From contig OX485806.1 in NCBI GenBank assembly GCA_950295325.1, forward strand, positions 53,439,169-53,503,168: a stretch of 64,000 nucleotides of DNA, given 5' to 3'. A program made the translations under genes and the position numbers. Shown piece after piece: positions 26,495 to 50,549 of this stretch (position 1 is its first letter; each line of letters begins with the position of its first letter). Origin of the DNA: Polytrichum commune (lineage: Eukaryota; Streptophyta; Polytrichopsida; Polytrichales; Polytrichaceae). A model generated the notes under the pieces. It was not told where the DNA came from, searched no databases, and saw only the letters and a program-made list of their open reading frames with translations.

Positions 26495-27283
26495 GCAAGT
26501 CCTTTGAAGGTCGAGTAACATCTCAAACCCTTCGGACATCAATGGTTCGAAGGGTGGTGTCACTCTACTGAGTTAAGTTTCCGATTCGGGTCTCTTGCCA
26601 ACAAGGGTTTACGATTTATTTTGTATGTTTTGATTGTTAAATGTGTTTACACTGGATAGACCACGAAATGCAACTCAATGGGACCAGGGTGACGGCCGAC
26701 CTGTAGGTTCAACCTGTTGCGCAATCTTCATAAATTGGGCCATTACTCCCAATCTATGGGGCCAACAACATAATAGTGGATTCGCGGGTCATCAACCCCA
26801 CCTTTCCACCAACAACATTCAGAGTGGTCGTGTCGGCGATTAATCCGACTTACCACACACGAAACTTGCTAATAAATGAAGCTACTACCACAAAACATAC
26901 CAAGGGCCCCGAAAACAATGGAGTTGGGTATTCCCTTGGCGGTCAAGTGGTCAAGCCACACTTGACCTTACAAGATAGGTGAGTGGGTGTAGAGATGTGT
27001 ACCTTAGCCGCGCTGCCTCCAACCCTAAATGGAAGGCTAGCGTTAGTAAATTTACCTCAATTCTCCTCGGTTGATTTGGACTCGATGGAGGCCGAGCCGC
27101 TACCTCCTTCCTTGCTCCACTTCCCGAACGTCGACCTTGCCTCCTTCTTTGTAACTAGTTTGGTAGTAAGCGTACCTTAGTTAATAACTAAAATATAAAG
27201 TATTTATTCTGCACTGTAATTTAATCCTAAGCATGATATTTATATTTAGTGCACCTAATTATCTTTCCAATGATCTAAAAATC
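26495..27283. other. Unassigned DNA left of the 17.9-kb element
   Basis: Short open stretches around 26634-27180 show no motif I recognise and change frame. The final bases ...CTAAAAATC join, across the element, to ACTTTAATCGG at 45187, giving the empty site. Confidence 0.4.
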
Positions 27284-29452
27284 TGATGGACGCCGTGGGT
27301 CGTTCCTTTGCAAAATTAGCTAAGAAGACTCACGATGCTCATCACGTAAAATTTATATTCGCTTGAGAACTACCGTGCCTCATTAATATGTTCGGTCCTC
27401 AAATTAACAACTCCTCTCTTCTCCTTATGATATGAATATATTTATCGGAGTGAACACAATCTCATTATCTTAGTTCTTATTCTCAATGTAAGGCATCAAT
27501 GACAATAAGAACCTTTAGATTTAAGAAAGCTTCAAGAGGTGTAACAATAACATATATTAATATAGTTTCAATATGTTGTTTGAATCCTTAAGTTTTGTAG
27601 TTCATAACATCAATCACATAAATGATAGTAATCTTATAATAAGGAAGAAGATACAATATTCTTAAGTCTTCCTTTTTAAGCTCAAGTGTTACTACTTATA
27701 ATATTGTAACTTGACATATATAATTCATGAACACAACATTAATTGTTTTGCAATGTCACGTTGATCTTCAAAGTGTTTTAATGATAAGATTAATTATAAT
27801 TCTTTTGAGGTTTGCTCAAAAGATGATAACTCTTCTCCGATTGTTAATGACATCCAACAACTCACAAAGTATCTTAAAAGAAGTTCAATAACAATTGTAG
27901 TAAGTAGATTATCTTATATTAATATTACTTCATTCATATGTATTCAAACTTTGATGTGAATTAATGTCTTCATCATTCTTGTCAATCACAAGTTCAACAA
28001 TCAATATGTAGTATAATAGGTATAATACTTATAAGTCAATTATGTAGTTTTCAATAATAAGCTCCTCCTCTTTTGAAGGAGTTTGTAATCGTTAAGTGGT
28101 TTTGCTTTAAACATGCATATAATTCTTCAATCATTCAATCACATGTATATTTATAATTCCCTTTTGAGGAGTTCAAAGATAAGTTCCACTTTAGAGAGTC
28201 AATCGTAATTCCGACGTTCAAGTCAAATTGTCGTTACTACTCACAACAACTACTCTCAAAGTTCCATTGATACTCCAACTCTTCTTAAGCGTTTTGTTCT
28301 CACCCTCGCACTAATACTTTGAGTTCTTTCTCAAAGCACCTACTCTTCTCTCGTTTAATAATCTCTTGAGTCACAAGTACCAATTGACAACTCGTAGTTC
28401 GACTTGAGAAAAAGAGAGAGAAAGGTCACACACATTTGTGGAAAAGATATTGTATTGCAAAAGAGCTCCGAGAGGAGAGATACAAAGAAACTCAAGTGTT
28501 TTTTACACTCAAATTTGTGATAACTTCGTTGTGTAGAAAATGAGGTATAGGTCTCCTAATTTGCTTCCCTTATATAGTATTTTCTTCCTATCCAAAATCT
28601 ATACTAAGAGTGGTTGTTAACTTCCACTTTCCTAGATACTTACTATCTTTGATATATGTAGATGATTCCTATCCTAAACGGTTACAACCGTTTCATCATC
28701 TTAATGTTCATAATTCCAAGATTTCCCTAACTCCTTGTTGTGGCTACATTCTAAATTCTTTTTTTGGAGATCAATCAAATCTTTATGTTGATTGATTAAT
28801 GATCATGCTAGTAGAATGTACCATATTCCTATATTCCCCTTAATGTCTTCATAATGTCTCCTTGAGTTTAATATCTAAAATTCCCATATATTCCATAATC
28901 GTGCTTCCTCAAAATCCTACATTCTACCTATTCCATAATCGTGCTTCTTCGGATAGACATTCATCCTCAATACAATTCTAAAACATAATTATGTCTCTTC
29001 AAAAATACTACATTCCTATATACTCCGTTAATATGTCTCTTCATATAGTCATTGATCTTCCCTTCCTAAATACTTGTCTCTTTAATGGTCCTTTCATCTC
29101 AATATCCTATTTCCAATATGCCCTAATATACTTCATAATGCCTAATACTAATTTCTTAATACTAGTATAGTAGCCTACTACTTAAATCCTAAGTATTCCT
29201 CCTTAAACCCGCTGGGCACCCATTGCCGTGGTATAGGAGGACCTATTGCCGCGCGTAAGGTGCATAATGCCGTGGGAAAGGGGCCTTAAGGCCGTGGCCG
29301 AGCTCCATGGCCGAGAGCTTCTTCGGCATTCTTCTTCGGTGTTGTTCTTCTCCTTCTCTGTGAATCCTTCTTGCTAGTTTGCATGCTTGTTGATTTAAGT
29401 GCCGTTACCTTACTCGAATTTGTCTTCTTCTCTTTAATGTTGTGACTCAACA
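27284..29452 (-). repeat. 3' LTR of the 17.9-kb element
   Basis: 2169 bp, TGTTGAGTCACAAC...GGCGTCCATCA on the minus strand. Lacks 152 bp present in the 5' LTR. The deletion lies at about 27876, between two copies of a 30-base repeat (ATGACATCCAACAACTCACA...) that are still both present in the other LTR. Contains no coding frame. Confidence 0.95.
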
Positions 29453-29467
29453 TTTTACTCCCCTCCC
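29453..29467 (-). other. Polypurine tract of the 17.9-kb element
   Basis: Minus-strand GGGAGGGGAGTAAAA abuts the TGTTGAG start of the 3' LTR. Confidence 0.9.
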
Positions 29468-29484
29468 GGATTGAGATCCTGCCC

Positions 29485-32040
29485 TCAGGATCGTTTTGCT
29501 ATCTTCATGCTCCCTGGATCGTATTGTGGGAGGTAGAGTAGGGTTCGTGCATGAGGTGTAGAGATTTGTCTTTGTTCCAATGTGTATTTTCTATCTTCTA
29601 ATGCTCTTGTTACATAGCCATGTAGTTGAATCCGATGAAATGCTGTTGGAAATGAATCTGGAAACTTTCTCACCAGATTTTGATGTTGATGTATAGCCTC
29701 ATGTAATAATGTTGTGTCTTCTCCCGCGAGTATGTCTAACGCAGATAGAAACTCTGGAAATTGATTGTTCGCCATCTCCTGGATTTCCTTAGTGAGCTCC
29801 TGGTCATAGGGTTCGATCTGTGGCAGGGAGTTGCGAGTGTCAATGTTTGTGTAAAAGGCTTCGTGGTGACAATTGATGTGTGTAAGGGCCCCGATGCAAA
29901 ATCTGGTGAGGTAGAATGTTGAGTTTGTAGTAGTAATTTCAACTACTCCCTTTGGGACTATTAAATCTTTTAGTACCCACATAAAAGTGAGGAGGTCCCT
30001 GGCTCCCGAATTTGCTTGAGCCCACAAAATTTGAAACTGCTATTTTGATAAGTGGGTTTGAAGTTTGAGATCTGGGAGGTTGCTCGAGTTGAAGATCATA
30101 GGCTTATAAGCCTGGTAGTATTGATAGATGCTAATGGGAGGGGGTAGGTTTTTCATTGTCGCTGTGATGAGGTTCCCTTGGTCTTCGATGTTGCTCAACC
30201 CTAGCAAATTGTCCCATTTCAGATGTTGAGTGGCCTCTTCCTCTTGTTGCTCTAATATCGCTTGTAGATCATCTCTCTCCGTGGTTGCTTGGTATAACTC
30301 TGTTTTGAGAGTTTTCAGTGTATGGCTAATCTTTGTCGTGACTCTTTGCAGAAGAGTCTGTATCGAAATTTGATGTTCGGTGTCGGAGGTGGATCGCTGC
30401 TGTACCCAGAGGTCAAAAGCCTCGATTTTTGCTAATTCTTGCATTCGATCCGGGTTTACATGTGTAGCTGTGTGTAGAGCTAATTTCTGTATCTGTGGCT
30501 TGTAGCCGTCGACTTCTGTGTGGAAGGCTTCGAATTCCGCCGCGGCCTCTTTGTGAATTTCGGAGATTGAGTGGCGGAGGTGTCGAAGTTGCTATGCGGC
30601 TATGGCCGCGATGCTGGTGCGATTGTTGAGGTCAGTCTGCATGACTTGTCTCTGCATCAGAAATTTGTTTTGTTCTTCCATCATGGCTTGTTGGTGTTGC
30701 TGGATTGTCGTGGTGTGCTTCTCTTGGAGAAGCTCATGCTTCAGCTGGTAGTCTGTAAGTTGTACCTTGTTTTCGGCGCTCTCTCGAAGTTGATTTTCTG
30801 CCGCAGCATACTGAGTCTCTAGGTGTGCATATTTTTGTTGCAGCTCCTGGTGTCGAAATGAGGCATCTTCGGCGTCTTGGCGACTCTTCTGTTCCGCTAA
30901 GGTGTAATCAGTCTGCAGGTGTTGTAGTTGGTTTTCTAGTTCCAAGATACGGTTCTGTGAATTAGGATTTTGATCTCCAAATACTGGAATAAGTTCCCTT
31001 TTGTGTCCTGCTGCGGTGTTGAAATGGGAAGTGCCTGTGATCCAGTTCTCCAAGAGCTGGCTAGTGTGATTGAATTGTTGTAGAATGTTTTTTAGTGGTT
31101 TTGAATCAAATTGTGAAGTACCATTTGTGCTTATAAGCACAGTTTGATCTGTTGCTGGTTCCATTCTTGCCACCAGAATCTGTGGCTTTTCGCCTTGTTT
31201 GGATGAGTTCCCTTTTGTGTGTGATGGTTCTCCTTTTTCTGTGCCTAATAGTTCCATTTCAGTGTCATGCTTTCTCTTCTTGGAACTGGGGACAGATTTG
31301 TCCTGAAGTAACGAGGTCTCTAAAAAACCTGCTTCAATCTCCTGCTGTACGGTTAAGAGTCCTTCAGCCATAAGGATCATGGTGAGAGGAGGTCCCACCA
31401 TTGTCTTGAGCAATGTGGATTTTTCCCTAAGAAGTCCCTCTTTGAGATTCTTGAGTTCTGCCTCTATCAACTCGCGAAACAATGCTGGCCAGTCTACTGG
31501 CTTGCCATTTAGAGCATCAGATATATATGTAATTGCTTGACAAGGAATCGTATTTGTGTTTGTGTGTAATAACAAAAGAGAGTTAAAGAACCTCAATGGC
31601 CGTTTCGCTTCAGGAATAGTACACTCCACCACTTTGCAGGTTCCTGCTTTGCTTCTGGCCTTGTCGCTGTAACTTGGAAAAATATCTGCAGCTGCAACCT
31701 TAGGAGTTCCTGGTTCTCTTCTCGCGGAAAATGGTGTCAGAAAAAATACTACACGCATTTTATTCCTCCAATCCTTGCTGAAAATTGGGAAGACTCGGCC
31801 ATTCAAAATAGACTGCATGGTCTCTAAGTTGAGATTTGTGAGCACTTCTTGAATGACAGAGACATTTAACATCTCCCATGTGACCCTTGTCACAAACCTA
31901 TCAAGGCCTATAAGTTGCAAAAACGTCTCTTCTTCTAACGAAGGCTCAAAATCAAGGGCGGCCATTTCGGTGCTAAAGACAATGTCATCAACTGCCTTCG
32001 TCTGGGAAGCTTTTCCCTTCTCTTTACTGGGAGTCCTCAT
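29485..32040 (-). pseudogene. Extra post-integrase reading frame, about 850 codons, unknown function, two TAG stops
   Basis: An ATG at 32040 (MRTPSKEKGKASQ) lies in the frame that follows the integrase tail. The frame runs to 29485, interrupted only by TAG at 30592-30594 and TAG at 30040-30042. A globular part (about codons 20-250 from this ATG) has passages such as LDFEPSLEEETFLQLIGLD, PEAKRPLRFFNSLLLLHTNT and KTMVGPPLTMILMAEGLLT. A basic KKRKHD (nuclear-signal-like) follows. Then comes a long glutamine/glutamate-rich region (about 360-480) with the heptad character of a coiled coil. After the first TAG a second helical segment (ATTERDDLQAILEQQEEEATQ) and a C-terminal domain follow. I do not recognise the family. 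It sits where env-like genes occur in some elements, but has no signal peptide. Whether it is a separate protein or a polyprotein end is open. Confidence 0.7.
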
Positions 32041-33540
32041 GTTTGAAGAATGAAACACTCTGATTCCGAATGTGCTTACTATATTGGCAAGTGGAAACTT
32101 TCTTCGAAGTGAAAAATTAAGCGGCAGCTGAATGAGCTTCTGGATCAGTCGAACCATCAGTTGAGGTCCCTTGTAATCAGCTGTCCTTGTGTGATTCATA
32201 ATGATGCTGGTTGTTGAAGTGGTTAAGGTTCTTGGTTTGTTGAAGGCCTTCTTGCTCATTACTTTAACAGTAAGTTGGTTGAGATGATAATCGTGGCCCC
32301 TACTTGGTTTACACTGATTTTGTAATAATCCAGGATATAGGCTGGTCTTACTGCTGCTTGCTTGAACATTAATCTTATTTGGTTGATAATTTTCGAAACC
32401 GCTTTTATCAAGTTTAATCCTCAATAATCCGAGAATTATCTCGTTTCCTCTTTTATTTGATGAATGGATGGATGAACCCCTTGGATGTAAGTACAAATTT
32501 TTAAGTACGAGTTGTATGAAAATTATGCACCATATCCCACACATATGTTGTAACCACTTAGTGGTTAATTCGTTTGACGTCGTATATTTTGAATGTACTT
32601 TGTACTTGTGATATGTGTTGTTGTTGATGGTTGTCTCGCGTAATGTGTTTGGTGGCGAATTCTCCGATAAACATATGTATGGGGTACTCCTCTTGAAATC
32701 ATATCCTTTTGTTAATAATTGAGTAAATATTTTCTCAATTTCCGTAGTTTTTACGGCGTTGGTAAATTTCTCATTCACAGTTTCTTTTCTCATTGGTTGT
32801 ATAGAATAACATCCAAGCATTTTGTGATGGACTTCATCATAATCCGGGGATGTAAAAGTCTCCATTTCTCCTTGATCAAAAGTGATAACTTGGTTGGGAT
32901 TAACCCAGTCGTATGGTAAAAATTTCTTCGATCGCCATCGTCCCAATTGTTTTTGATGAACGGTCTTGATCTCCAAGGTATCGTCATCATGGATTCTTGT
33001 GATGGTGTAAGGGCCTACCCATCTTTGTTTCTCAAAAGGTGTCTCGACTTGTTTGTTTGATAGGTATTTGGTCACTACTTTTTGCCCTTCGTAAAATGAA
33101 CATGTCTTCCTTGATCCTCCTTTGTGGTGGTTGGTATAATTGGATCCGTTTGTATAATTTGTACTTGTTTTATCAAGTGGTGAGTTCGTGGCGTCATTCA
33201 CTTCTAAAACATATGCCTTTGCTTCAAGGGGTTCATGGTAAGGTTTAATCTTACTCATGTTTACCCTCCCAAGAGTTTCTCCTTGCAATGTGCTTACATC
33301 CACGGTATTGTTATCGTAAGTTTCTGTAATTTCGTAAGGTCCACTCCATCGGATTCTAAATTTGCCTGGACCGGGCTTGTTCATCCTTTGATGCCACAAA
33401 ATCTTTTGACCCTTGTAAAATTTGGGATTTTTGTTTTCTTGCGAATTCTCCTTTGCTTGATGAGTGTTGTTAGTCTTTTCCTTGGTATCATAAGAGGGTT
33501 TCTTGCAATGTTTGCACCTCTTGCCTTCTATTAAAGTTTT
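32041..33540 (-). CDS. Integrase tail with two GPY/F modules and long linker
   Basis: In frame with the extra reading frame. Module one: FYKGQKILWHQRM, then RIRWSGPYEITETYDNNTVDV (33229-33425). Module two: FYEGQKVVTKYL, then QRWVGPYTITRIHDDDTLEI up to KKFLPY (32911-33105). Both show the same order FYxGQK...RWxGPYxIT...DxxT, so one arose from the other. GPY/F modules are SH3-like folds at the end of gypsy integrases that contact DNA or chromatin. The remaining 290 codons to 32041 are low in motifs. One hydrophobic run (MCGIWCIIFIQLVLKNLYL, about 32540-32500) could be a membrane segment. A one-base shift in an A run at about 33540 separates this frame from the integrase core. Confidence 0.75.
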
Positions 33541-36380
33541 ATCTTATCTTCTCTTCTCATGGTTTGAGTATGCTCAATATTCTCCTCCGCTTCGATACGG
33601 GTCAAATCTAGTGTCTTTAATTGTTCCATTCTCTTTTTAAGAACGGGATGCCATTCTTGATTCCTTTGAAGATTCTCCTCGTGGTAAATGAATGTCAATG
33701 GAAGTAATGCTTCCGTTCCAAATACCAATGAGAATGGTGTATGCTTGGTGGTGACTTTGTATGCCGTTCTATATGCCCATAGTGCCGCATATAGTTTAGT
33801 GTCCCAATCCGTGCGATTGGCGTTTACCATTTTGGTAAGTGTCGTTTTAATGACTTTGTTCGTGCTTTCGGCTTGTCCGTTGGCTTGAGGGTAGTAAGTT
33901 GTCGATTTACGATGTAAGACCATAAATGTCTTGGTTAAAATTTGAATTGTCTCATTTAGAAAGTGATTCCCTTGGTCACTAACTAGTTCAATCGGACATC
34001 CGAATTTGGTGATGATCTCCTCAAATATGAATTTCGCGGTAGATGTCGCGGTATTATCCTTAAGTGCTCTCGCTTCAACCCATTTGGTAGTGTAGTCCGT
34101 GGCGGTGATGATGTATCTATTTTTAGTACCTTTGGCGGGAGGATTGATTGGACCTATAAAGTCTAATCCCCATCTTTGAAAGACTTCCGTAGGCATGATT
34201 GGGTGTAATGGTTGTGCGGATTTGGAGACTTTTGGTCCCACTCTTTGGCATATGTCGCATTGTTTGCAATACATATATACATCCTTTTTCATAGTAGGCC
34301 ACCAATAAAGAGCCATTAATATTTTGTGTAATGTGATGTTTGCCGCGAAATGTCCTCCCGCAATGCCCTCATGTGCTTCGGCAATGATCGCCTCGGTAAT
34401 TGGTCCGGATACACATCTCCTTTTCATGCCATCGGCTCTTTCTTTGATTAATTGGTCTCCGTTGATGAGTTGAAAAGGTCTACTTCTTATCGCTATTTGT
34501 TGTCTTTGAGAAGTTGTTGCCGGTGTTGTCAATCTCCCGTGCGATAAGTAGTCAATAAATGGTGTTCTCCAATCTTCTTGTTGATCGGTGGTAATTGCTC
34601 CGCATTGAATTTTGGTTGTTTCTTTCTTCTTACATTTCGGACATTCTCCATTGATATAATGTTCCGTATCTTGTACTATGGTAGGCCACCAATAAGGCCC
34701 GTTAAATATTTGTTGAATTGTATCATTCGGGTTGAGATGATAACCATTTTGTTCATGCACTCTTTTTATTAGATGCTTGATTGGATCTCCCGCGATACAT
34801 ATTTTCGTTTCTCCGTGGTCTACTTCCTTCCGTAAATCTCCCTCTTCCATAAAGTAAGTTCCATTCTCTTGTTCAAATGGATGTCGATCTCCGGTTGTTC
34901 CTTGAATCAAGTACTCTACTATTGGTGCTCTCCAATCCAAATTGGTTGATTCATTCTTTCGTGTCGTTGGTCTAGTACCAATTCTTTGTTTGATGAAACT
35001 TTGAATATCGCGAGTCATCGTAGGCCACCAATATGGTCTTTGTGTTGCTTGTTTTATCATTTCTTCACATGTTTGATATTTTTCATGAAGTTCCTTTAAA
35101 AATCCTTGTATCCGATTCTCCGATATGCATTCTTTAGGTATCTCATTGGCGACAAATCGTCTCATTAGTTTCCCATTCATGATGGCGAAGAATTGACTTC
35201 TATTCGCAATCCGTTCCTTCTCTTCTCCGGTTAAGTCATTGCTCATTACCTTTCCGAATAATAAGTATTCGAGGTAAGGTTTTCTCCAATCCGATGGTGA
35301 CATTTGCTTTAATATAGTCACTTGTTTATCTTTTAGATTCATCTCTTCTTGCTTCCCATTGAGTTGTAACATGCATTCTTCACATTCGTATTCCGCGTGA
35401 TACTTGATGTCTTCGTCAATTGTAGGCCACCAATAAGGACTAAAGAATATTAATTGTTTAGTCATAGGTAGGGTCAAATGCTTGCCTTTTGCGTTGTGAG
35501 TGGCCGCTATGAATTTTCCTCCTCGACTTCGTGTGACACATATTCGTGTATCTCCGTTGGGTAGTAATCTTATCAAGGTTCCTCCGTTGAGGATGAACCG
35601 TTTGCATTTGTTTGCCCATCGGAGTTGTTTTTCATTGGTAATATTTTCTCCACTTACTTGTCCATTTCTTAAGTACTCAAAATAGGGTTTTCTCCAATCC
35701 GTCGAGTGGTTTTCTTCCGTAGTTGACTCGTCATCCGATACCGAGTCTAGTACTAGAGTATCATTTTCAAGTTCATGTATTCGTCCTTCATTTTGTCGTA
35801 AGCAAACCGGACATTCTTCGCAATAACTTGCTACGTCCCTCTTTCTTGTTGGCCACCAATAAGGTCCACTTAATATGGTGAACCAAGTATTTTCGAAGGG
35901 TTGATGATGGCCTTCTTGTTCATGCGCTTCCGCGATGATCTCCTCAATAACTTGTCCCGCTATGCATGTTTTTGATTCTCCACTTGGGCTAATTCGTATT
36001 AGTTTATCTCCATCCATGATGTAGGGTTCACTAGCCCGTCTTATGCGCGTTTGTTCCTCTTCCGTTGTTCCGATTGTTAACAATTTTCCATACTTGAGAT
36101 ATTCTTTGAACGGTTTTCTCCAATCTTCCGTTGGTTGGACATATACCATGTACCATTCAAGGCATGGTGTCATGTTTTCCTTTCCTCGTTCACTTTCTTC
36201 ACTTACTTGCTCTTTTCCTTCCATGTAATCATCTTCTTCTTCTAGTACCTCTATACAAAATAAATTTGCATCCGGTAGTTGGTCGTTTACTCCGGTGGGT
36301 GGTTCTCCATTATCAATTCTTGAGAGGTGATCCGCCATCACGTGTCGTCTCCCGGGCATATACACAATCTCAAAATCGTA
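33531..36380 (-). CDS. Integrase with five tandem H2C2-type modules and DDE core
   Basis: 944 codons from 36365, continuous with RNase H except for the TAA at 36381. It starts with the end of RNase H (YMPGRRHVMADHLSR). Then come five copies of a module opening DW(R)xPxxxYL..G and closing YWWPT..xD: 36125-35802, 35699-35373, 35291-34980, 34937-34632 and 34574-34248. Zinc ligands: copy 1 HEQEGH...CPVC, copy 2 HNAKGKH...CEEC, copy 4 HEQNGYH...CPKC, copy 5 HEGIAGGH...CDIC; copy 3 has lost the second histidine and the CxxC. The catalytic core has LDFIGP (Asp 735), VSDQG (Asp 797) and QAESTN (Glu 833), a D-x61-D-x35-E arrangement. Usual gypsy integrases have one module. Confidence 0.92.
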   Translation of the reverse strand, partial: YDFEIVYMPGRRHVMADHLSRIDNGEPPTGVNDQLPDANLFCIEVLEEEDDYMEGKEQVSEESERGKENMTPCLEWYMVYVQPTEDWRKPFKEYLKYGKLLTIGTTEEEQTRIRRASEPYIMDGDKLIRISPSGESKTCIAGQVIEEIIAEAHEQEGHHQPFENTWFTILSGPYWWPTRKRDVASYCEECPVCLRQNEGRIHELENDTLVLDSVSDDESTTEENHSTDWRKPYFEYLRNGQVSGENITNEKQLRWANKCKRFILNGGTLIRLLPNGDTRICVTRSRGGKFIAATHNAKGKHLTLPMTKQLIFFSPYWWPTIDEDIKYHAEYECEECMLQLNGKQEEMNLKDKQVTILKQMSPSDWRKPYLEYLLFGKVMSNDLTGEEKERIANRSQFFAIMNGKLMRRFVANEIPKECISENRIQGFLKELHEKYQTCEEMIKQATQRPYWWPTMTRDIQSFIKQRIGTRPTTRKNESTNLDWRAPIVEYLIQGTTGDRHPFEQENGTYFMEEGDLRKEVDHGETKICIAGDPIKHLIKRVHEQNGYHLNPNDTIQQIFNGPYWWPTIVQDTEHYINGECPKCKKKETTKIQCGAITTDQQEDWRTPFIDYLSHGRLTTPATTSQRQQIAIRSRPFQLINGDQLIKERADGMKRRCVSGPITEAIIAEAHEGIAGGHFAANITLHKILMALYWWPTMKKDVYMYCKQCDICQRVGPKVSKSAQPLHPIMPTEVFQRWGLDFIGPINPPAKGTKNRYIITATDYTTKWVEARALKDNTATSTAKFIFEEIITKFGCPIELVSDQGNHFLNETIQILTKTFMVLHRKSTTYYPQANGQAESTNKVIKTTLTKMVNANRTDWDTKLYAALWAYRTAYKVTTKHTPFSLVFGTEALLPLTFIYHEENLQRNQEWHPVLKKRMEQLKTLDLTRIEAEENIEHTQTMRREDKIKL

Positions 36381-39300
36381 TTATTGTAGAAGAAGCATCC
36401 ATCTTGCGATTCTTCCCGAGATTATTGGTCTATTTATCAAGTATAACAATGCTTGATGATCCACGTAAAACACGAAATGATTCGCCAAAAGGTAGTGTCG
36501 GAATTTGTTTACCGAATATACCATTGCTAATGCTTCGCGTTCCGTTGTACTATAATTTTTCTCCGCTTGATTTAGTAATCGGCTTGCATAATATATAGGT
36601 GAGTCAATATTTCCATTCACATTTTGCGCTAGTACCGCTCCAATGGCTATGTTTGATGCATCATAATGGACATGGAATTCCATTGACCAATTTGGAGCCA
36701 TTAGTATTGGTGTCATAGTTAGAAGTCTCTTGACTAGTTCAAATGTTTGTTGGCAATTTGTCGTCCATTCAAATGCTTCATCCTTTTTGAGGAGAGCATA
36801 AAGAGGTCTCGTAATTTGTGCAAACATCCATATGAATCTCCTATGGTATGTTACCGAGCCTAAGAATGCTCGTAAACTCTTGACATTTGTTGGTGGTGGT
36901 AAGTTTTGTATCACGGAGATCTTTTTGGGATCTATCAAAAGTCCCTCTTTGCAAACTACGTGACCGAGTAATCTTCCCGAGGTCACGCAAATCATGCACT
37001 TCTCCGGATTAAGACTTAATCCACACTCTCTACATCGTTGAAGACAAAGTTTAAGGTGTTTGATATGATCCGCCTTTGTCCCATATATACTAAAATCGTC
37101 CAAAAATACTTTCATAAAATCATTTAGAAACTCCGCGAAAATCGTCATTACTCCCCTTTGGAAAGTAGATGGCGCACTCATAAGTCCAAATGACATCACT
37201 CTAGTAGCATAAGCTCCCCACTCCGTAATAAAACAAGTTTTCGGTTGATCCTCCGGTGCTACCCTCACTTGATTGTAACCACTAAATCCATCTAGTAGTG
37301 ACAACATCTCGTGTCCGGCTACCGTCTCAAGAATCTCCTCCGTGAATGGTAATGGAAATGGGTCGGATTTTGTCGCTCCATTGAGTTTCCGATAATCTAC
37401 GCATACTCTTAACTTCCCATTTTTCTTTGGTACTATCACTATTGGTGAGAGCCATTCCGCTCTATCTACCGGGTAGATGAATCCGGCCTTGAGCAATTTG
37501 TCGATCTCCTCTTTCACCTTCGCCGCATAGTTCGGATTCATTCGATATCTACTTTGCTTGATCGGCTTGGTATTTGGTTTGAGCTCTATCTTATGTTCAC
37601 AAATGTGAGGTGGTATCCCTTTCATATCTTCATACGTCCATGCAAATACATCCTTGTAATCCCTTAATATCTCAATTACTTGGTTTTCATAGGTCGGGTC
37701 AAGTTCCTTTCCTATTCGTACCATTTTGGGATCCTCCGTTGTTCCCAAGTTAATTTCTTTTATCATATCTTCATCTTCGATGGTCCATCTGGCGATTGTC
37801 TTCCCTTTCACCGCTTCGGATGCCGGTGTTCGGTCTATCGCTTGTTCTCCTTCCTTCATCTCATAAAAGTGAGGTGGATAGACTGGTTTCTCTCCCATGT
37901 CTTCTTTTTGTTTTGGAGTTCCTTCTTTGAGTTTAGGGACTTGCTTTTCTTCTTTCTTGGCCTTTGTTTTAGTCCCCTTTTTGTTGATATTCTTCATCTT
38001 TTCTCCATCGACGCTTGTCATAACCATATTGCAATCGGTTTCATATAATTGCTTCAATCCATCTAGCTCCACATCGGCTATGTGGTGTAAGCTTGGATAA
38101 GCTTGATAAACTACTTGTTCCTCTTCATCGGTCAATCCGGCTTCCCAATCAAAACCTTCAATGTTGATTGGTCTTGATGAATCCGGAAGCTTCGGTCTTC
38201 GATTTGTACCAATACATACATCTATTCCATTTTGATATAAAATTAGTTGACTCTTTCCCCAATCGTGCTTGGCACGTGCTTGCTTAAGCCATGGCCGTCC
38301 GAGTAACATTGAGTAGCTATTCTCTTGATTCTCCATCTTAATTACCGTCACGGTAATCTTAAAAGTTAACCCTCCAATATTGATTTTCAAATTCTTGATG
38401 ATTCCAAGTGGCGTTACTTTCCGTTGATCCGCCATCTTGATTGTGAATGGTGCCACTTCAAGTTGTTTCTCTATTCCTAGTTTCCTCATTAAAGTGTCCG
38501 TAATAATGTTTACTCCTGATCCTCCATCTAATAACACATTTGGTATTCGTCGATTCTTAGTCCATACCGTGATCATCGGCATTTCTTCATCGAAATCTTT
38601 TGTGGCTACGAGATATGTTTGAGGGACTTCCCTCTCATCTCGCCCGTTCATGTAAATTGCTTCCATTACCCTTCTTTTGCAATAAGGGGCTATCTCCAAG
38701 AGTTGCCCTATTGTGATATTTGCTTGAGTTGAATCTAGTACTTTTCGAATAATTTGTCCTACCCTCGTCCGGGGTTCTTCTTTCATCGCTTCTCCCTTAG
38801 CGGATTTTCGGTACTTTGGGGCCAGATCTTCTGGCTCTAAAAGATCTTCGCCCGCTTCCCGTTGGATCTCCTTGATCTCATTCGTTACTTGGCGGTGTAT
38901 CTCCCCCTTCTTCTTCCACTCCGAATCCTCCGGTGCATCCCGCAACACTTGTGACTCGTGTTCTTTTCGCCTATTCTTTGGCTCATTCTCATTCTCACTA
39001 AGCTCTTCGCTTTCTTCATCCATAACCTTTATAGTATCCTTTTCATCATCACTATCACTATTCTCCGAGTCTTCGCTCTTTCTATCATCTTCTTCATCTT
39101 CCAATTCACTCTCTTCCTTAGAGTTTTCTTTCGCCGCTCTTTGGGCTCTTGTCATCACACACACACTTGGTGTCACTACATTTGCCGCCACCATGGGCTT
39201 CTTCGCGTAATCATTCGCTTCATCTTGATGTTTCCTAAACAATGAGCACTCCGGCTTTCTATGACCCGGTTGATGACAATAATAGCACTCGTCGGCGTTG

Positions 39301-41096
39301 CCTTCCCGTCGCGGTAGGCCAGTGTACCCGATTCTCGGCGCGGCTTTTTGGCCATTGTTGTCCATCACATCCCTTGGGTATTCCAATCTCCCGTGATTAA
39401 TAGGTCCTCTAGGGCCGCCTGTAAAGGGGTATGTCGCTTCCCTCCGGTAATTGTCATACGGGTACCGATCTCCTCTTCGGTATTCCTGCCCGTGATAGGG
39501 GTATTCTTCATCCCTTTGCTTATCTCTCCCTTGATAGGGGTATCTCATATCTCGCCGATTCTCCCCGAACCGCGGTCTATCTTCATCTCTAAATCTCGGA
39601 GGTTCGGCTCCCGCCCTTCTCCGGTTGTTGTTGAATTGTGGTTGTACTTGATTCACTCCATATCTCCTTTCTCTCCTTCGTCCATCATAAACACATTCAT
39701 TTGTATTGTGGGTAGTACTATTGCAATTTGTGCAATTCTTTAATTGGCATTCATTCGAATAATGACCTTCGTTCCGGCATTTCTGGCAAGTGACTCCTGT
39801 TCTAAACTTCCGAGTACCGATTGCGAGTTCCTCTATCTCTCGTTTAAGAGCCTTTAAATCATCCTTAGTAATATCGGCTTTCTTAGCCTTTCCCTTTTTC
39901 TTCTTTCTCTGTGCTTCTCCGTCGGAATCGCTACTTGAATCTCCACTTGATTCGTCTTCTCTCATTCTTTCCCTTTTCGTTTTGCTCATCTCAATCTTTC
40001 GTGCCGAAGCTAATGCTTCCTCCAAGGTATCACTTGGTAAAATGTTCACGTACTTTTCGTACTCTTTCCTTAGTCCATTTATGAACCAAGTTTTTCTAAT
40101 TTGTTCTCCCGGCGCAGGTTGAATCTTTGCAGCCGCTACCATTACTCGTTCATAGAATTCTTCCACCGATTCATCTTTCTTTTGCTTTACGTGTGACAAG
40201 TTGTTGATGATCTCCCCTTCCGATTTGGTTGATCGGAATCTTTGGATAAAAGTTGTCTTTAAATCGTTCCAATTCAAAAAGTGATTCGCGGGAAATTGGG
40301 TGTACCATTCTAGTGCCTTTTTCTTAAGAGTCACCGGAAACAATCTTAGTTTCTCCGCATCGGTTCCTTCTTGATTGGCATGACATATATTGACATACTC
40401 TTGTATGTAAGTGTCCGGATCCTCTTTTCCTTTGTATGTGGGAAGAGGTATCTTCCCTCTTCTAGGCGGGGGTGGTGCTCCTCCCGACATGGCTATAGTT
40501 CCACTTCCTCTTCCTCCTCCGGAACTTCCAATATTCGTCCCTAATGACGTTGTTCCGGATCTTGTTGTGCTATTAATCGGTACCCTATAGTCAAATCTTT
40601 GTTCACTAGCCCTTACTTGTTGCAAAAATTCTTCAAATGTTTGGTTGACTTGTCTTGATGTTGGTTCCTCACTTTGAGTTGTTGTTGAATTTTCGTTCTC
40701 TACTATGCTTTCTTGTGTGTCTTGATCAAAATTAATATTCCGGGGTATCCCTTCTCTAGTGTTCGTTCCGAATGTTCCTAATGGAGTGACGGTGTCTCCT
40801 TGCTCTTCTCTATTTATGTTTTCGTATTCGTAAGGTGATGGTCGGTCTAGGTTATCATTTGTTAGTGGTGGGGATGGTGATCTAGATACTTCAAGACCTT
40901 CGGCTCTTTGTTTCTCCCGTCTCTCGTATCGTTCCGCTCTCTCTCTTCTTTGCCTCTCGGCTCTTTCTTCTTCGCTATTGGGGTTTACTCCATGTTGCAT
41001 ACGGTTAATGTGCTTACGTTCGGCCTCGGCCTCTCTCCTAGATGGCGGCGAACGACTTCGCTCCCTAGTGTCTTCCTCTTCGTCGTACATTAACAC
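36381..41096 (-). CDS. Gag-protease-reverse transcriptase-RNase H polyprotein, 1571 codons
   Basis: ATG at 41096 (MLMYDEEEDTRERSRS). Residues 1-110 are charged, arginine/glutamate-rich. Gag core about 215-375 (TYKGKEDPDTYIQEY...ALEWYTQF...FIQRF). Three CCHC knuckles: CQKCRNEGHYSNEC (437-450), CTNCNSTTHNTNEC (455-468) and CYYCHQPGHRKPEC (604-617). Acidic linker 660-720. Protease with DGGSG at 857-861, the variant of D(S/T)G common in plant gypsy elements, and LLGRPWL (931-937). Reverse transcriptase about 1180-1440 with LLDGFSGYNQ (Asp 1269) and FLDDFSIYG (Asp 1333, 1334). RNase H from 1475 with HVHYDAS (Asp 1479), TTERE (Glu 1519) and YVDHQAL (Asp 1546). The frame ends at TAA 36381-36383, where the RNase H end continues in the same frame, so this stop is a break inside the polyprotein. 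Confidence 0.95.
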   Translation of the reverse strand: MLMYDEEEDTRERSRSPPSRREAEAERKHINRMQHGVNPNSEEERAERQRRERAERYERREKQRAEGLEVSRSPSPPLTNDNLDRPSPYEYENINREEQGDTVTPLGTFGTNTREGIPRNINFDQDTQESIVENENSTTTQSEEPTSRQVNQTFEEFLQQVRASEQRFDYRVPINSTTRSGTTSLGTNIGSSGGGRGSGTIAMSGGAPPPPRRGKIPLPTYKGKEDPDTYIQEYVNICHANQEGTDAEKLRLFPVTLKKKALEWYTQFPANHFLNWNDLKTTFIQRFRSTKSEGEIINNLSHVKQKKDESVEEFYERVMVAAAKIQPAPGEQIRKTWFINGLRKEYEKYVNILPSDTLEEALASARKIEMSKTKRERMREDESSGDSSSDSDGEAQRKKKKGKAKKADITKDDLKALKREIEELAIGTRKFRTGVTCQKCRNEGHYSNECQLKNCTNCNSTTHNTNECVYDGRRRERRYGVNQVQPQFNNNRRRAGAEPPRFRDEDRPRFGENRRDMRYPYQGRDKQRDEEYPYHGQEYRRGDRYPYDNYRREATYPFTGGPRGPINHGRLEYPRDVMDNNGQKAAPRIGYTGLPRREGNADECYYCHQPGHRKPECSLFRKHQDEANDYAKKPMVAANVVTPSVCVMTRAQRAAKENSKEESELEDEEDDRKSEDSENSDSDDEKDTIKVMDEESEELSENENEPKNRRKEHESQVLRDAPEDSEWKKKGEIHRQVTNEIKEIQREAGEDLLEPEDLAPKYRKSAKGEAMKEEPRTRVGQIIRKVLDSTQANITIGQLLEIAPYCKRRVMEAIYMNGRDEREVPQTYLVATKDFDEEMPMITVWTKNRRIPNVLLDGGSGVNIITDTLMRKLGIEKQLEVAPFTIKMADQRKVTPLGIIKNLKINIGGLTFKITVTVIKMENQENSYSMLLGRPWLKQARAKHDWGKSQLILYQNGIDVCIGTNRRPKLPDSSRPINIEGFDWEAGLTDEEEQVVYQAYPSLHHIADVELDGLKQLYETDCNMVMTSVDGEKMKNINKKGTKTKAKKEEKQVPKLKEGTPKQKEDMGEKPVYPPHFYEMKEGEQAIDRTPASEAVKGKTIARWTIEDEDMIKEINLGTTEDPKMVRIGKELDPTYENQVIEILRDYKDVFAWTYEDMKGIPPHICEHKIELKPNTKPIKQSRYRMNPNYAAKVKEEIDKLLKAGFIYPVDRAEWLSPIVIVPKKNGKLRVCVDYRKLNGATKSDPFPLPFTEEILETVAGHEMLSLLDGFSGYNQVRVAPEDQPKTCFITEWGAYATRVMSFGLMSAPSTFQRGVMTIFAEFLNDFMKVFLDDFSIYGTKADHIKHLKLCLQRCRECGLSLNPEKCMICVTSGRLLGHVVCKEGLLIDPKKISVIQNLPPPTNVKSLRAFLGSVTYHRRFIWMFAQITRPLYALLKKDEAFEWTTNCQQTFELVKRLLTMTPILMAPNWSMEFHVHYDASNIAIGAVLAQNVNGNIDSPIYYASRLLNQAEKNYSTTEREALAMVYSVNKFRHYLLANHFVFYVDHQALLYLINRPIISGRIARWMLLLQ

Positions 41097-41390
41097 TACT
41101 TAGCATGATCTTAGACCACCCTAGTTGGCCCTCCCGGCTTCAACTATGTGCATTCTATATTCACCCTTTCGCTAGTACGGTTCTTAGGACACACTATTCT
41201 TCTTGACTCAATTAGTTTTCTCTTCCTCTTCGTCGTACATTAACACTACTTAGCATGATCTTAGATCACCCTAGTCGGCCCTCCCGGCTTCAACTATGTG
41301 CATCTATATTCATCCTTTCGCTAGTACGACTCTTAGGACAAATTGTCTCTTAATCTAATTTTCTCTTCCTCCCCAATGGATTCTTAAAAT
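41097..41390 (-). repeat. Tandem duplication in the leader, about 120-bp unit, two copies
   Basis: TTCCTCTTCGTCGTACATTAACACTACTTAGCATGATCTTAG... occurs at about 41070 and again at about 41221, including the sequence of the gag start. The upstream copy therefore repeats the gag start context (MLMYDEEEE-like) without continuing into gag. Confidence 0.8.
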
Positions 41391-41391
41391 T

Positions 41392-42625
41392 TCACTCGTT
41401 TAACTTGATCAACCCTCGCTCACTATTTTCCAATTTCTCTAGTCCGTTGTAAAGTTTTATCATCACCCTTTCGAAGTACAAGTTATATAATAATCCCTCT
41501 TGTGGGTAGTGGTACCCTCTATGAGTCTTGTGGCGCTTTTCGCCCGTTTCCCGATTCCAATTCTCCCGTGATTCCACACCTTTGAGAATATCTTTGCTTG
41601 TAGTTCTTCCGGTAGTTCGTAGATTCTCCTCTCAAACTCCGATCGATAAGTAAATCCGATTTGTTTCTTGATAAAGTTCTTGGTTGCTTTTGTCTTATAA
41701 ACTTTGTGCATGTTCCACATCAAATCATGGAACCTCTTTACTCCTTCATATTGAGTTAGTACCTTTTCGTCCCAACTAAACTTCGGGTACTCCCAAGGCC
41801 AATGACTCACACTTCCTTTAGTGTCAATGTCTTGTATAGTATCATCAATCACGTATACTCCTTTCACGTTTGATCTCTCAATTTTTCTCAAAATCGCTCT
41901 TTCAACATGTGAGGCTTCAAGTGGTCCGATTAAATGCTTCTCCTCGGATCCTTCTTCTAATCTTTCTCGTAAGTTATCGCGGCAATGGATGTTCTCAAAC
42001 CAAGGAATCATTGATCGTAGCCGGTACCATTACTCGTGTGTAGTATATGTCGTAAAAGAACCCTTCTAGATTATAATGGTACCCACTTTGTTTTGTTGTT
42101 CCCGGCATGCATTCCCACAATGTATCCTTGCCTTTGTTCCACACTTTTGAAAATATGATGGCTTGTAATTCTTCGGGTAAGTCTTTGATTCGTTTCTCAA
42201 ACTCCGATCGGTATGTGAAACTAATCCGTCTTTCTTCAAAACTTCTCTATGCTTGATCGATGTATACTCGGTTCATACATACCATTAAGTCACGAAATCG
42301 TTTGGTGCTAATCCATTCTTCCGCTTTGTTAGATTCTATGATGTAATCGGGATATTCCCACGGCCAACTTGATATTAGTTCCTTTTGGTCGTTCGCTATC
42401 TTCTCCTTTGATTTAACGTTCCAATTTTGCTTGTTGTTCATTGGAAATTTCTCCCGTTGTGTGCCACAATTTGTAAAGTAGTGACTCCTCAATTTCCACT
42501 TGATAGAATTCCTCTTGAGTTTCGATCTCCTTGAGTATCGCCTCGCAAAAAATGATGAAGTTTAATTCATTCAACGTATCACGTATCTCCCGGTCGTCTT
42601 CCGTATGTCTCTTCTCATTTGACAT
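41392..42625 (-). CDS. Leader reading frames upstream of gag, two tandem diverged copies
   Basis: Copy A spans about 42011-41392 and copy B about 42625-42020. Both contain WPWEYP...KRF.DLM..M..VY, then FTYRSEFE.RI..LPEELQA.IFSKVWN, then GYHY..EG..Y..Y..RVM, with a change of frame before the last part in each copy. The longest single frame is 182 codons (42011-41463). Function unknown and no zinc or enzyme motif. Position before gag resembles the ORF1 of Tat/Ogre elements, though I see no sequence relation. The repeated phase change could mean an intron, a programmed shift or decay. Confidence 0.6.
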
Positions 42626-42836
42626 TCTTACTAGTAAGGCGCATTATCTTCGAATCGTGTTTAGTTCCAATTGGTAGATATGACGTTGCGGTTGTCCGCT
42701 CTTCTTGGCGTAATTCTCCACGTGCTTAGTTAACGCATTCGCCAAGAACCTCCGCTTTCGTCCTTTTCACACTTAAACACCGAGACACATTAAATCACCC
42801 TTTCACATTTAATTTACCGAAACACATTAATGGCAA
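42626..42836 (-). other. 5' untranslated leader of the 17.9-kb element
   Basis: Between the primer binding site and the first leader frame. No coding evidence. Expected to hold packaging and splice signals. Confidence 0.6.
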
Positions 42837-42857
42837 GAATCCCCAGCATGGTCGCCA
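42837..42857 (-). other. Primer binding site of the 17.9-kb element
   Basis: Minus strand TGGCGACCATGCTGGGGATTC, three bases after the 5' LTR end. It starts with TGG, the complement of the CCA tail of tRNA. The TGGCGAC...CTGGGGA pattern resembles arginine-tRNA sites described for Ogre-like elements. The exact tRNA needs matching to a tRNA set. Confidence 0.75.
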
Positions 42858-42860
42858 AAA

Positions 42861-45181
42861 TGATGGACGCCGTGGGTCGTTCCTTTGCAAAATTAGCTAA
42901 GAAGACTCACGATGCTCATCACGTAAAATTTATATTCGCTTGAGAACTACCGTGCCTCATTAATATGTTCGGTCCTCAAATTAACAACTCTTCTCTTCTC
43001 CTTATGATATGAATATATTTATCGGAGTGAACACAATCTCATTATCTTAGTTCTTATTCTCAATGTAAGGCATCAATGACAATAAGAACCTTTAGATTTA
43101 AGAAAGCTTCAAGAGGTGTAACAATAACATATATTAATATAGTTTCAATATGTTGTTTGAATCCTTAAGTTTTGTAGTTCATAACATCAATCACATAAAT
43201 GATAGTAATCTTATAATAAGGAAGAAGATACAATATTCTTAAGTCTTCCTTTTTAAGCTCAAGTGTTACTATTTATAATATTGTAACTTGACATATATAA
43301 TTCATGAACACAACATTAATTGTTTTGCAATGTCACGTTGATCTTCAAAGTGTTTTAATGATAAGATTAATTATAATTCTTTTGAGGTTTGCTCAAAAGA
43401 GGATAACTCTTCTCCGATTGTTAATGACATCCAACAACTCACAAAGTATCTTAAGAGAGAAAGCACTTTTACTACAAAGTGTTTCTTGATGACGAGAAGT
43501 AAACCTATCTCTCTTGAATTTTGCTCAAAAAAGAGAGAGAGATCTTCTCTTTAATAAATAATCCTCCAAATTGTAATGACATCCAACAACTCACAAAGTA
43601 TCTTAAAAGAAGTTCAATAACAATTGTAGTAAGTAGATTATCTTATATTAATATTACTTCATTCATATGTATTCAAACTTTGATGTGAATTAATGTCTTC
43701 ATCATTCTTGTCAATCACAAGTTCAACAATCAATATGTAGTATAATAGGTATAATACTTATAAGTCAATTATGTAGTTTTCAATAATAAGCTCCTCCTCT
43801 TTTGAAGGAGTTTGTAATCGTTAAGTGGTTTTGCTTTAAACATGCATATAATTCTTCAATCATTCAATCACATGTATATTTATAATTCCCTTTTGAGGAG
43901 TTCAAAGATAAGTTCCACTTTAGAGAGTCAATCGTAATTCCGACGTTCAAGTCAAATTGTCGTTACTACTCACAACAACTACTCTCAAAGTTCCATTGAT
44001 ACTCCAACTCTTCTTAAGCGTTTTGTTCTCACCCTCGCACTAATACTTTGAGTTCTTTCTCAAAGCACCTACTCTTCTCTCGTTTAATAATCTCTTGAGT
44101 CACAAGTACCAATTGACAACTCGTAGTTCGACTTGAGAAAGAGAGAGAGAAAGGTCACACACATTTGTGGAAAAGATATTGTATTGCAAAAGAGCTCCGA
44201 GAGGAGAGATACAAAGAAACTCAAGTGTTTTTTACACTCAAATTTGTGATAACTTCGTTGTGTAGAAAATGAGGTATAGGTCTCCTAATTTGCTTCCCTT
44301 ATATAGTATTTTCTTCCTATCCAAAATCTATACTAAGAGTGGTTGTTAACTTCCACTTTCCTAGATACTTACTATCTTTGATATATGTAGATGATTCCTA
44401 TCCTAAACGGTTACAACCGTTTCATCATCTTAATGTTCATAATTCCAAGATTTCCCTAACTCCTTGTTGTGGCTACATTCTAAATTCTTTTTTTGGAGAT
44501 CAATCAAATCTTTATGTTGATTGATTAATGATCATGCTAGTAGAATGTACCATATTCCTATATTCCCCTTAATGTCTTCATAATGTCTCCTTGAGTTTAA
44601 TATCTAAAATTCCCATATATTCCATAATCGTGCTTCCTCAAAATCCTACATTCTACCTATTCCATAATCGTGCTTCTTCGGATAGACATTCATCCTCAAT
44701 ACAATTCTAAAACATAATTATGTCTCTTCAAAAATACTACATTCCTATATACTCCGTTAATATGTCTCTTCATATAGTCATTGATCTTCCCTTCCTAAAT
44801 ACTTGTCTCTTTAATGGTCCTTTCATCTCAATATCCTATTTCCAATATGCCCTAATATACTTCATAATGCCTAATACTAATTTCTTAATACTAGTATAGT
44901 AGCCTACTACTTAAATCCTAAGTATTCCTCCTTAAACCCGCTGGGCACCCATTGCCGTGGTATAGGAGGACCTATTGCCGCGCGTAAGGTGCATAATGCC
45001 GTGGGAAAGGGGCCCTAAGGCCGTGGCCGAGCTCCATGGCCGAGAGCTTCTTCGGCATTCTTCTTCGGTGTTGTTCTTCTCCTTCTCTGTGAATCCTTCT
45101 TGCTAGTTTGCATGCTTGTTGATTTAAGTGCCGTTACCTTACTCGAATTTGTCTTCTTCTCTTTAATGTTGTGACTCAACA
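42861..45181 (-). repeat. 5' LTR of the 17.9-kb element
   Basis: 2321 bp, nearly identical to the 3' LTR. Holds the 152-bp segment (about 43456-43607) flanked by two copies of a 30-base repeat that the other LTR lacks. Promoter elements are not obvious. The GC-rich part (about 44930-45060) with repeated GCCGTGG contrasts with the AT-rich remainder. Confidence 0.95.
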
Positions 45182-46498
45182 AAATCACTTTAATCGGATA
45201 AGAATTGCAAAAGTTATGAGGGTTGGAAGTGTGAGGTCGATTCAACCGACCCTTCCAACCCACCTATCTAACTTCTAACTTCAAAAATTCATAGCACATT
45301 CCTTACTACTTGAATCTAGGCTTTCCTTATACCATTGGAAAGCTATGAACAAGTTCTAACTAGGAAAATTATGACATCAGCAGGTTAAGCTAATAGAAAT
45401 TCAGCAGACTCCTTGTAACACAGCAGTCAATCAAGAAGGCTTAAACTATGTATCTCGCCTTCAACAATTCATATCTAATTCAAATCTTATTCAAATCAAA
45501 CGTTTCATATGACCCTGGAGAGATATTAAAAAGATGTATTTGATAAAAATATGTGATTGGAAAGGTAAGCCGAAGTGAACCCAACAGATCCTCTGTAATG
45601 CAGCAGTCAACCAAAAGTTCTCAAACTATGTGTCCCATCTTCCACAATTCATATCTAATTCAAATCATGCTCAAATCAAATGTTCTAAGCCATTTTGGAA
45701 ACCTACACAAAAGTTGTACTTGGGAAAAATATAACTTCTTAGAATTAAAATTCCTATTGGGCTCGCAGGTCTGATCCAGCAGCCGCTACCCACAAGACCA
45801 CCCAGTTTTTCTACTGCATCTTTGGAAATCCATAACTAATTGTCATCTTAACCAAATCACAAATGGGAAACGGCTATGGATAGCTATATGAAATCTCTCT
45901 AAGAGAAAAATGATAAGTTTCTTGTTCTAGCTTCTGAACTAAGCTTTCAGGACATTGGCAGATGAGGTCTACAATGCCTCTAGTCAAAACTCTACCATCC
46001 AACCTACCTCTACAAAAGAAGGAATAATTTTGTTGGTGTGTTAATAAACACACATTCTAACTAGGAGAGAGAGTAGAGGAGGTTCTCAAGCCTTTCTTTT
46101 AGACCATTGAGAATGCATGCTAAAGGATTTTTTCCTAACTACATTGACGCAGGGCTTCGCCCAAAAACTAGAGAAAGAGAGAGAGCTACAAGGTGGAAGG
46201 AGGGGTTTTTAAACCCTCTCACAAAAGGGTTGGACCCCTCCTCCACCGGATCCATTTTTCAAACCCTTTCCCGAAATTTTGGCTCGGGGGTTTTCCCGGT
46301 TGAGGTTGCCACCCTCTCGCCGAGGTGGCTCCGACGAGAAACCTTTAGAAATCTTTCTAATTTCTTCGCCATCGAGTTGGCAAGGGGGCAAGTGGGCAAG
46401 TAACCCCCTTGCTCTCTTTCTAATTTTCTTTAAAAGTCTTCAAGCCGGTTTTGTCTTCTTACGCAAAACACCTCCAATAGTCTTGTGTGCCTCACACT
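45182..46498. other. Unassigned DNA right of the 17.9-kb element
   Basis: Continues from 27283 across the target duplication. CAGCAGTCAA and CATATCTAATTCAAATC recur around 45420-45660, suggesting an old duplicated repeat. AT-rich up to 46080, then purine-rich leader-like sequence. No coding frame is supported. Confidence 0.4.
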
Positions 46499-49270: not shown

Positions 49271-50549
49271 CATTTTCTTGGTGACAGCTAGCGCGGATTG
49301 GTACTCGGGCATCGTGGAGTTCCTCACGACTCAACAGTTGACGGGGGATCGAACAAGAAAGGAAAGGAGAAATGTTAGAATTAATAGTCTGTACTATACA
49401 GTGATAGGGCATAGACTATTTCGGAGAGGGATGGATGGGATCTTACGGCGATGTGTGCCGGAGATCGAGGCTCCCTCTATATTGGCAGCTTGTCATGATA
49501 GTGCATGTGGTGGGCATTTCTCAGGATTGCTCACTGGACAAATAATGCTTAGAGGAGGTTACTTTTGGCCGGATTTGTTCAAGGATGCTAAGAAATATGT
49601 TAGGAAATGCGATGCTTGTCAAAGGTATACGAGGAATGAACTCCGCATGGAATTGCCTCTTCACATATCTTTACCTCTAGTTCTCTTTGACAAATGGGGA
49701 ATTGATTATGTTGGTGAAGTTCACCTCCATTTTTCTATGGGTATGGCTTACATTATAGTTGCCACCGAGTACTTGACTAAGTGGGCGAAAACAAAGGCGG
49801 TGAAAAGAAATATGGCCGCCAATGCCGCCACATTCATGTATGAAAACATCATCTCAAGATTCAAATGTCCCAAGATTCTTGTTAGCGATAGGGGTACACA
49901 CTTCTTAAATGAAATGTTCCAAGACTTGACAACCTGATTTAAGATTGACCATAGGAAGACAACACCTTATCATCCGGAGACCAACAATCAAACGGAGTGT
50001 GTTAACGGGACCTTGATGAGCATCCTTCGCAAGACAGTGCTAGATTCGAAGAGGGATTGGGATGTCAAGTTAACAACGGCATTGTGGGCGTATCGCACAA
50101 CCTTCAAGGCGACAACACAGGCAACTCCATTTTCCTTGGTGTATGAATTGGAGGCAACACTACCTATTGAATTCGAGGTCGAGTCACTACGAGTTGCGGT
50201 GCAATCGCGTCTCACAGATAGTCAGTCCTTGAAGAATCGATTGACAACCTTAGAGGAACTCGATGAAAGGAGAAGGAGAGCAGCTCAACATATCGAAACC
50301 ATCCAACGCCGGAAGAAGATCACCTTCGGCAAACGACACAAGAAGAGGGCACTGAGACCAGGTATGATGGTGATGATTTAGAATGCTAGAAAACTTGACT
50401 TTCCGGGTAAGTTTGATGCATGTTGGTTAGGGCCTTATTTCGTTCGAGAAGCATTCCCAAACAACTGGATTCCCAAGCAATTGGAGACATTAAGTGGGGA
50501 GAGCTTCCCGACACGCACATCGGGCAGCCGGTGCAAGGAGTATCGTGCC
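49271..50549 (+). pseudogene. Integrase of the third gypsy family, single zinc module, two stops
   Basis: One H2C2 module (ADWYSGIVEFL... CHDSACGGHF...CDACQR). Core: GIDYVGE, LVSDRGTHF and QTECVNG as the D, D, E residues. Tail: KFDACWLGPYFV, a GPY/F module. In-frame TGA at 49935-49937 and TAG at 50379-50381 break a frame that otherwise runs from 48903 to 50549. It gives the normal single-module design for comparison with the 17.9-kb element. Confidence 0.9.

Follow-up and report, generated by a model that had tools for sequence, protein, structure and literature searches.

Can the integrase of a Ty3/gypsy long terminal repeat (LTR) retrotransposon carry five copies of the zinc-binding module that normally stands once before its catalytic core, and have these copies been maintained by selection? 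The question is raised by a 64,000-nucleotide stretch of the Polytrichum commune genome (GenBank assembly GCA_950295325.1, contig OX485806.1, positions 53,439,169 to 53,503,168 of the forward strand), the whole of which we call the window and number from its first letter. An original prediction, made from the letters alone, had described five diverged modules in one open frame ahead of a normal core. This frame (33531..36380, minus strand) belongs to an LTR retrotransposon of 17.9 kb that occupies 27284-45181 on the same strand, and its 949 codons comprise the end of an RNase H, five modules and a D,D-35-E core.

Five modules ahead of the catalytic core

The frame contains five instances of the motif DWRxPxxxYL (or DWRxPxxDYL), at residues 86, 228, 364, 482 and 603, each of them followed by YWWPT (residues 174, 316, 450, 563 and 692). 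Counted towards the core, the modules lie on the minus strand at 35700..36125 (module 1), 35292..35699 (module 2), 34938..35291 (module 3), 34575..34937 (module 4) and 34173..34574 (module 5), the last being canonical and adjoining the core, into which it slightly extends. The span originally proposed, 34248..36125, agrees with these borders: module 1 begins at 36125, and the CxxC of module 5 ends at 34248. Pairwise identity is 27-38% over whole modules and 31-44% over each core of 112-118 residues, and the linkers between the modules vary in length. Common to all five are D1, W2, R3, P5, Y9, L10, G13, T20, C54, H68, YWWPT and a D four residues further.

We scored each module with a profile built from the other four, using 300 shuffles per module as a control. 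Modules 1 to 5 reached 131.0, 104.6, 87.6, 88.0 and 98.1 bits, while the best shuffles reached 4.8-9.9 bits, which rules out a chance origin of the modules and confirms the array of five. The Pfam family Integrase_H2C2 scored 139.4 bits on the whole frame, with four stretches each passing E 0.1. A search of every single module against the zinc-binding family had been suggested as a check, and it succeeded for four of them: at a cut-off of 25.5 bits, modules 1 (41.1), 3 (26.0), 4 (29.5) and 5 (58.4) pass and module 2, the weakest, stays below (15.0). Both histidines and the CxxC are present in modules 1, 2, 4 and 5, and module 3 has lost zinc ligands in a frame that is still open, as originally described; of its ligands only the first histidine is retained, the second histidine and the CxxC being gone. 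Module 3 is thus just above the cut-off despite losing most ligands, and module 2 below it despite having them. Module 4 also shows a weak match to zf-CCHC_5 (E 0.029, below cut-off).

Judged from motifs and profiles, each module is a predicted N-terminal extension domain (NED) followed by an H2C2 zinc domain (N-terminal domain, NTD), the unit that precedes the integrase core. The same unit is found in another gypsy element of the window (46716 to about 50000, plus strand; frames decayed), yet as the single module that had been claimed, starting with DW and placed directly between the RNase H match and the core (49296..49646, plus strand). It scored 58.5 bits with the module profile and was the only further significant match over the window; two matches of 10.1 and 8.2 bits were set aside. 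A profile of the six-row alignment (the five modules plus this single one) was compared with the PDB and matched residues 29-105 of prototype foamy virus (PFV) integrase (best E 2.6e-5) and Ty3 integrase (E 2.8e-4). The seven matches at E <= 1 were five foamy-virus-type integrases (one labelled INTEGRASE), Ty3 integrase and a genome polyprotein (E 0.19).

For the degenerate module 3, AlphaFold2 run on the six-row alignment predicted a fold with a mean predicted local distance difference test (pLDDT) score of 85.7, with helices at residues 4-12 and 22-34, three strands, and helices at 58-71, 75-84 and 92-104. Residues 107-118, at or past the expected place of the CxxC, had pLDDT below 50. In this model the first half may be read as the NED and the second half as the H2C2 domain.

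The modules are followed by an integrase catalytic core (Pfam rve, 33888..34190, minus strand). The triad is D740, D802 and E838, the last two separated by 35 residues as stated earlier, with E838 just outside the Pfam match at 33867-33869. The frame therefore has the HHCC zinc domain and the D,D-35-E core of a retroviral-type integrase, and in place of a single N-terminal zinc domain it has five units. The 944-residue product for which a structure prediction had been proposed turned out to be no natural unit, as the frame opens just after an in-frame stop within the final part of RNase H and does not include the C-terminal stretches, which are read in another frame.

The C-terminal part of the integrase was located in that other frame, at 30592-33543. 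It includes two stretches with a GPY motif, at 33217..33420 and 32893..33096 (both minus strand), which share one frame, different from that of the core. We take them to be integrase C-terminal (GPY/F, SH3-like) domains, from the motif as we know it and from their position. They are 39% identical over 62 positions by BLASTP and 36% by MAFFT, values given without a shuffle control. Neither had a Pfam match (the first none at E up to 10, the second none at the cut-off) nor a significant PDB match. The C-terminal domain has apparently been duplicated once; if so, both ends of the integrase would be multiplied. This doubled stretch was absent from the original prediction.

Divergence, constraint and history of the modules

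Between-module identity at codon positions 1, 2 and 3 was 0.502, 0.575 and 0.395 (1181 codon comparisons from ten non-independent pairs); for random codons of the element it was 0.276, 0.275 and 0.278. At residues identical between modules, 177 of 349 used the same codon, with 147 expected from codon usage, in ten pairs that share sequences. Silent sites between the modules are nearly saturated, and a small excess of shared codons is left.

No stop interrupts the frame of the 1953-bp module array. We simulated neutral divergence (substitutions only, equal rates, with codons 1-118 of module 2 as the starting sequence) down to amino acid identities of 0.42 to 0.29. The probability that one module stays open was 0.031 to 0.0125, and for all five it was about 3e-8 to 3e-10; indels would lower it further. 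Both the codon-position pattern and the simulation argue against neutral drift of the modules. Most of their divergence has probably taken place in working elements under purifying selection, which points to constraint and leaves the function unspecified. The earlier suggestion that the frames were kept open under selection thus gains support.

The age of the expansion had been argued from the contrast between diverged modules and near-identical LTRs, and this argument holds. The LTR pair differs by 5 substitutions (4 transitions and 1 transversion) per 2169 aligned bases, with K = 0.0023, plus one 152-nt insertion. Because the modules are only 27-38% identical, the expansion is old relative to the insertion of this copy.

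In a tree of the six module sequences, module 5 grouped with the single module of the other gypsy element (bootstrap 94%, 200 replicates) and modules 3 and 4 were joined at 80%, the remaining node having 46%. Branches were short for module 5 (0.08) and module 1 (0.33) and long for modules 2-4 (1.14-1.51); the six sequences are short and diverged, and the long branches may distort the topology. The simplest reading is that the core-adjacent module 5 is ancestral and that modules 1-4 derive from it, the outermost module 1 having stayed conservative and the middle modules having changed fast.

What the array may do

To our knowledge, the domain architecture of integrases is regarded as nearly fixed, and differences in intasome size are put down to the number of subunits. 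We consider it about an even chance (probability roughly 0.5) that the locus encodes a Ty3/gypsy integrase with amplified modules for end binding or assembly, the NED-NTD unit having been duplicated in frame to five and the C-terminal domain apparently once. Module 5 would do the usual work beside the core, and modules 1-4 would offer additional surfaces with which to grip LTR ends, target DNA or adjacent integrase chains. Module 3 would work without binding the usual zinc, by virtue of its fold. By analogy, one chain might supply in cis the contacts that other integrases get through added subunits. The anatomy read from the sequence appears solid and the evidence for constraint moderate, and the function is what we infer from them.

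A more far-reaching version, which we regard as doubtful, is a single-chain multivalent integrase. Its five NED-NTD units and two C-terminal domains would let few chains build a large intasome by domain repetition, not by oligomerisation, the slowly evolving modules 1 and 5 holding the LTR ends, with the quickly changing modules between them as spacers or targeting surfaces. If the array works, a retroelement has retained a costly domain array across many rounds of transposition, and the locus is a natural experiment that could show what contacts an intasome requires and whether their supply in cis suffices. The degenerate module 3 would be a test case for the zinc dependence of the fold.

PFV integrase is retroviral and has one NED-NTD unit, in contrast to the five here. 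It is the best solved match to the whole frame (PDB 3l2q and others), at E 9.3e-26 across the H2C2 domain and the core. Ty3 integrase (PDB 7q5b) has the same order of NED, H2C2 domain and core and was hit by the module profile at E 2.8e-4 and by the whole frame at E 3.8e-16. Ty3 integrase is described with a single NED, a single NTD and one C-terminal domain of SH3 type (PMC8632968), whereas the present element has five NED-NTD units and two GPY-type stretches; the NED is located at the LTRs in the solved structure (PMC8632968). Multivalent integrase contacts as an idea are shared with the hexadecameric intasome of maedi-visna virus (PMC9065133). Lentiviral intasomes reach multivalency through sixteen subunits, and this expanded architecture is linked to multivalent chromatin interactions (PMC9065133), while here the repeated domains lie in one chain.

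Among plant elements, the OTA superclade (Athila, Tat, Ogre and Retand) resembles the present one, within the sections of the survey used (PMC6317226), in domain order, great length, an extra frame after pol and the lack of a detected chromodomain. The same sections present archaeal RNase H as an additional domain, and chromodomains are among the abbreviations listed (PMC6317226). Tat elements have an archaeal-type RNase H, and the element here is without such a Pfam match. Those sections do not mention repeated zinc domains or a multi-module integrase, and the word zinc is absent from the main text (PMC6317226). The original prediction knew of no description of this design. Likewise, none was found in the titles and abstract openings of the open PMC papers listed, with subscription papers and preprints outside this scope, which makes weak evidence for novelty and no proof of it. 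The whole frame had no relatives among viral contigs, and the module alignment gave 6 pattern matches there and 4 in prokaryotic genome contigs, none of them confirmed; as these collections are viral and prokaryotic, the absence says little.

Several observations weigh against amplified end-binding modules. The architecture is known from one element copy, and pol is interrupted in this copy, where an in-frame stop separates ORF1 from the integrase and the frame changes ahead of the C-terminal stretches. When searched alone against the PDB, module 1 reached PFV integrase at E 0.029 only and module 3 found no integrase (modules 1 and 3 being the ones searched singly), and the whole frame aligns to solved integrases over module 5 and the core only. 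Module 3 lacks three zinc ligands and module 2 is under the Pfam cut-off, as relaxed constraint would also produce. With linkers included, modules 1 and 4 are acidic (isoelectric points 4.8 and 5.3) and modules 2 and 3 basic (9.2 and 9.5), and the acidity disfavours direct DNA binding by modules 1 and 4.

The acidity of modules 1 and 4 would allow them a part in protein contacts or targeting, and the extra modules might serve mainly to tether the pre-integration complex by binding chromatin or host proteins, without holding LTR ends. The differing charge of the modules and the long branches of modules 2-4 would suit such a role. All five modules, however, retain the same core residues, from the initial D, W, R, P, Y and L through G, T, C and H to YWWPT and the final D, which is beyond the need of a free adaptor, and we consider targeting as the main role rather unlikely. 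The varying linkers would agree with release of modules 1-4 by the protease of the element as separate small zinc-binding nucleic-acid proteins, akin to an extra nucleocapsid. An aspartyl protease match is present in ORF1 (E 1e-5, just below its cut-off), and the faint zf-CCHC_5 match of module 4 goes in the same direction. Yet the modules are of the integrase type, not the knuckle type, and share one frame with the core, which makes their release quite improbable.

That the array is tolerated baggage, which arose as tandem duplications accumulated in a permissive stretch separating RNase H from integrase and is passively carried, is consistent with the fast evolution of modules 2-4. Other tandem duplications indeed occur in retroelement-like DNA of the window, at 2740-3650 and 62597-63540 (repeated fragments of about 230 bp) and at 41071-41371 (150 bp). 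The two arrays of ~230-bp fragments, however, contain 8-19 stops per frame in all six frames, whereas the module array has none in its own; the period of these arrays is not divisible by three, so that they serve as a contrast to the module array, not as a matched control. The codon-position pattern and the simulation also oppose free drift across most of the divergence, and we judge passive carriage to be unlikely. An artefact of assembly or a chimera could be suspected from the single copy observed, but the element has an LTR pair, matching target duplications and PBS-like and PPT-like sites (primer binding site and polypurine tract), and with a protein identity of 27-38% the modules do not stem from reads that were collapsed or repeated. 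Such an artefact is extremely improbable.

The surrounding element and other repeats of the window

The element has the Ty3/gypsy domain order gag, protease, reverse transcriptase (RT), RNase H and integrase, as seen from Pfam, the H2C2 and rve matches being in the frame after ORF1. The 3′ LTR (27284..29452, minus strand, 2169 bp) pairs with the 5′ LTR (42861..45181, minus strand, 2321 bp), and both have TG...CA ends. The 152-nt insertion is found in the 5′ LTR alone, which is the right one, at about 43412-43573, its exact site being ambiguous as the flank is partly repeated. The target-site duplication is AAATC (27279..27283 on the left and 45182..45186 on the right). The probable primer binding site (42840..42857, minus strand), three bases inside the 5′ LTR, starts TGGCGACC with TGG first, and the probable polypurine tract, GGGAGGGGAGTAAAA (29453..29467, minus strand), stands before the 3′ LTR; both were assigned by sequence and position. 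Paired LTRs, these two sites and a short target duplication complete the Ty3/gypsy hallmarks.

ORF1 (36381..41099, minus strand, 1572 aa) encodes gag, protease, RT and RNase H, with Pfam matches to gag, protease, RVT_1 and RNase H, of which the best protease match is the one just under its cut-off. Its in-frame stop falls inside the RNase H end. The element is recently inserted, yet this copy is interrupted. We considered whether a folded RNA might promote programmed readthrough of the stop that precedes the integrase frame, and rejected this, the RNA fold being no stronger than that of shuffled sequence (z -0.01, with 91 of 200 shuffles as good); readthrough without such a structure may still occur. 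Given this result and the position of the stop within the final part of RNase H, we read the stop as a lesion of this copy.

A Pfam scan of ORF3 at E 0.1 found no chromodomain, which is weak evidence as Pfam misses the C-terminal domain there too. Pfam at E 0.1 gave no archaeal-type second RNase H in any of the three large frames, and there was none in the frames 29488-30039, 30043-30591 and 41466-42029. The frame of the C-terminal stretches continues through 29485-32900 (minus strand) with two in-frame stops; it has a coiled-coil look by eye and no Pfam match at the cut-off. Upstream of gag, a 188-aa frame (41463-42029, minus strand) has no Pfam match, and an 83-bp piece of it is repeated at 42137-42219 with 80% identity. 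The 150-bp tandem duplication at 41071-41371 spans the start of the ORF1 frame.

No tRNA was found in the window (searched with the bacterial code) and there was no Rfam match at gathering scores. The tandem copies of about 230 bp, which by eye have an RT/RNase H look, lie in other retroelements at 2740-3650 (plus strand), 62597-63540 (minus strand) and 54123-54467 (minus strand). Nested tandem repeats occupy 52543-53107, with units of about 56, 115, 136 and 251 bp.
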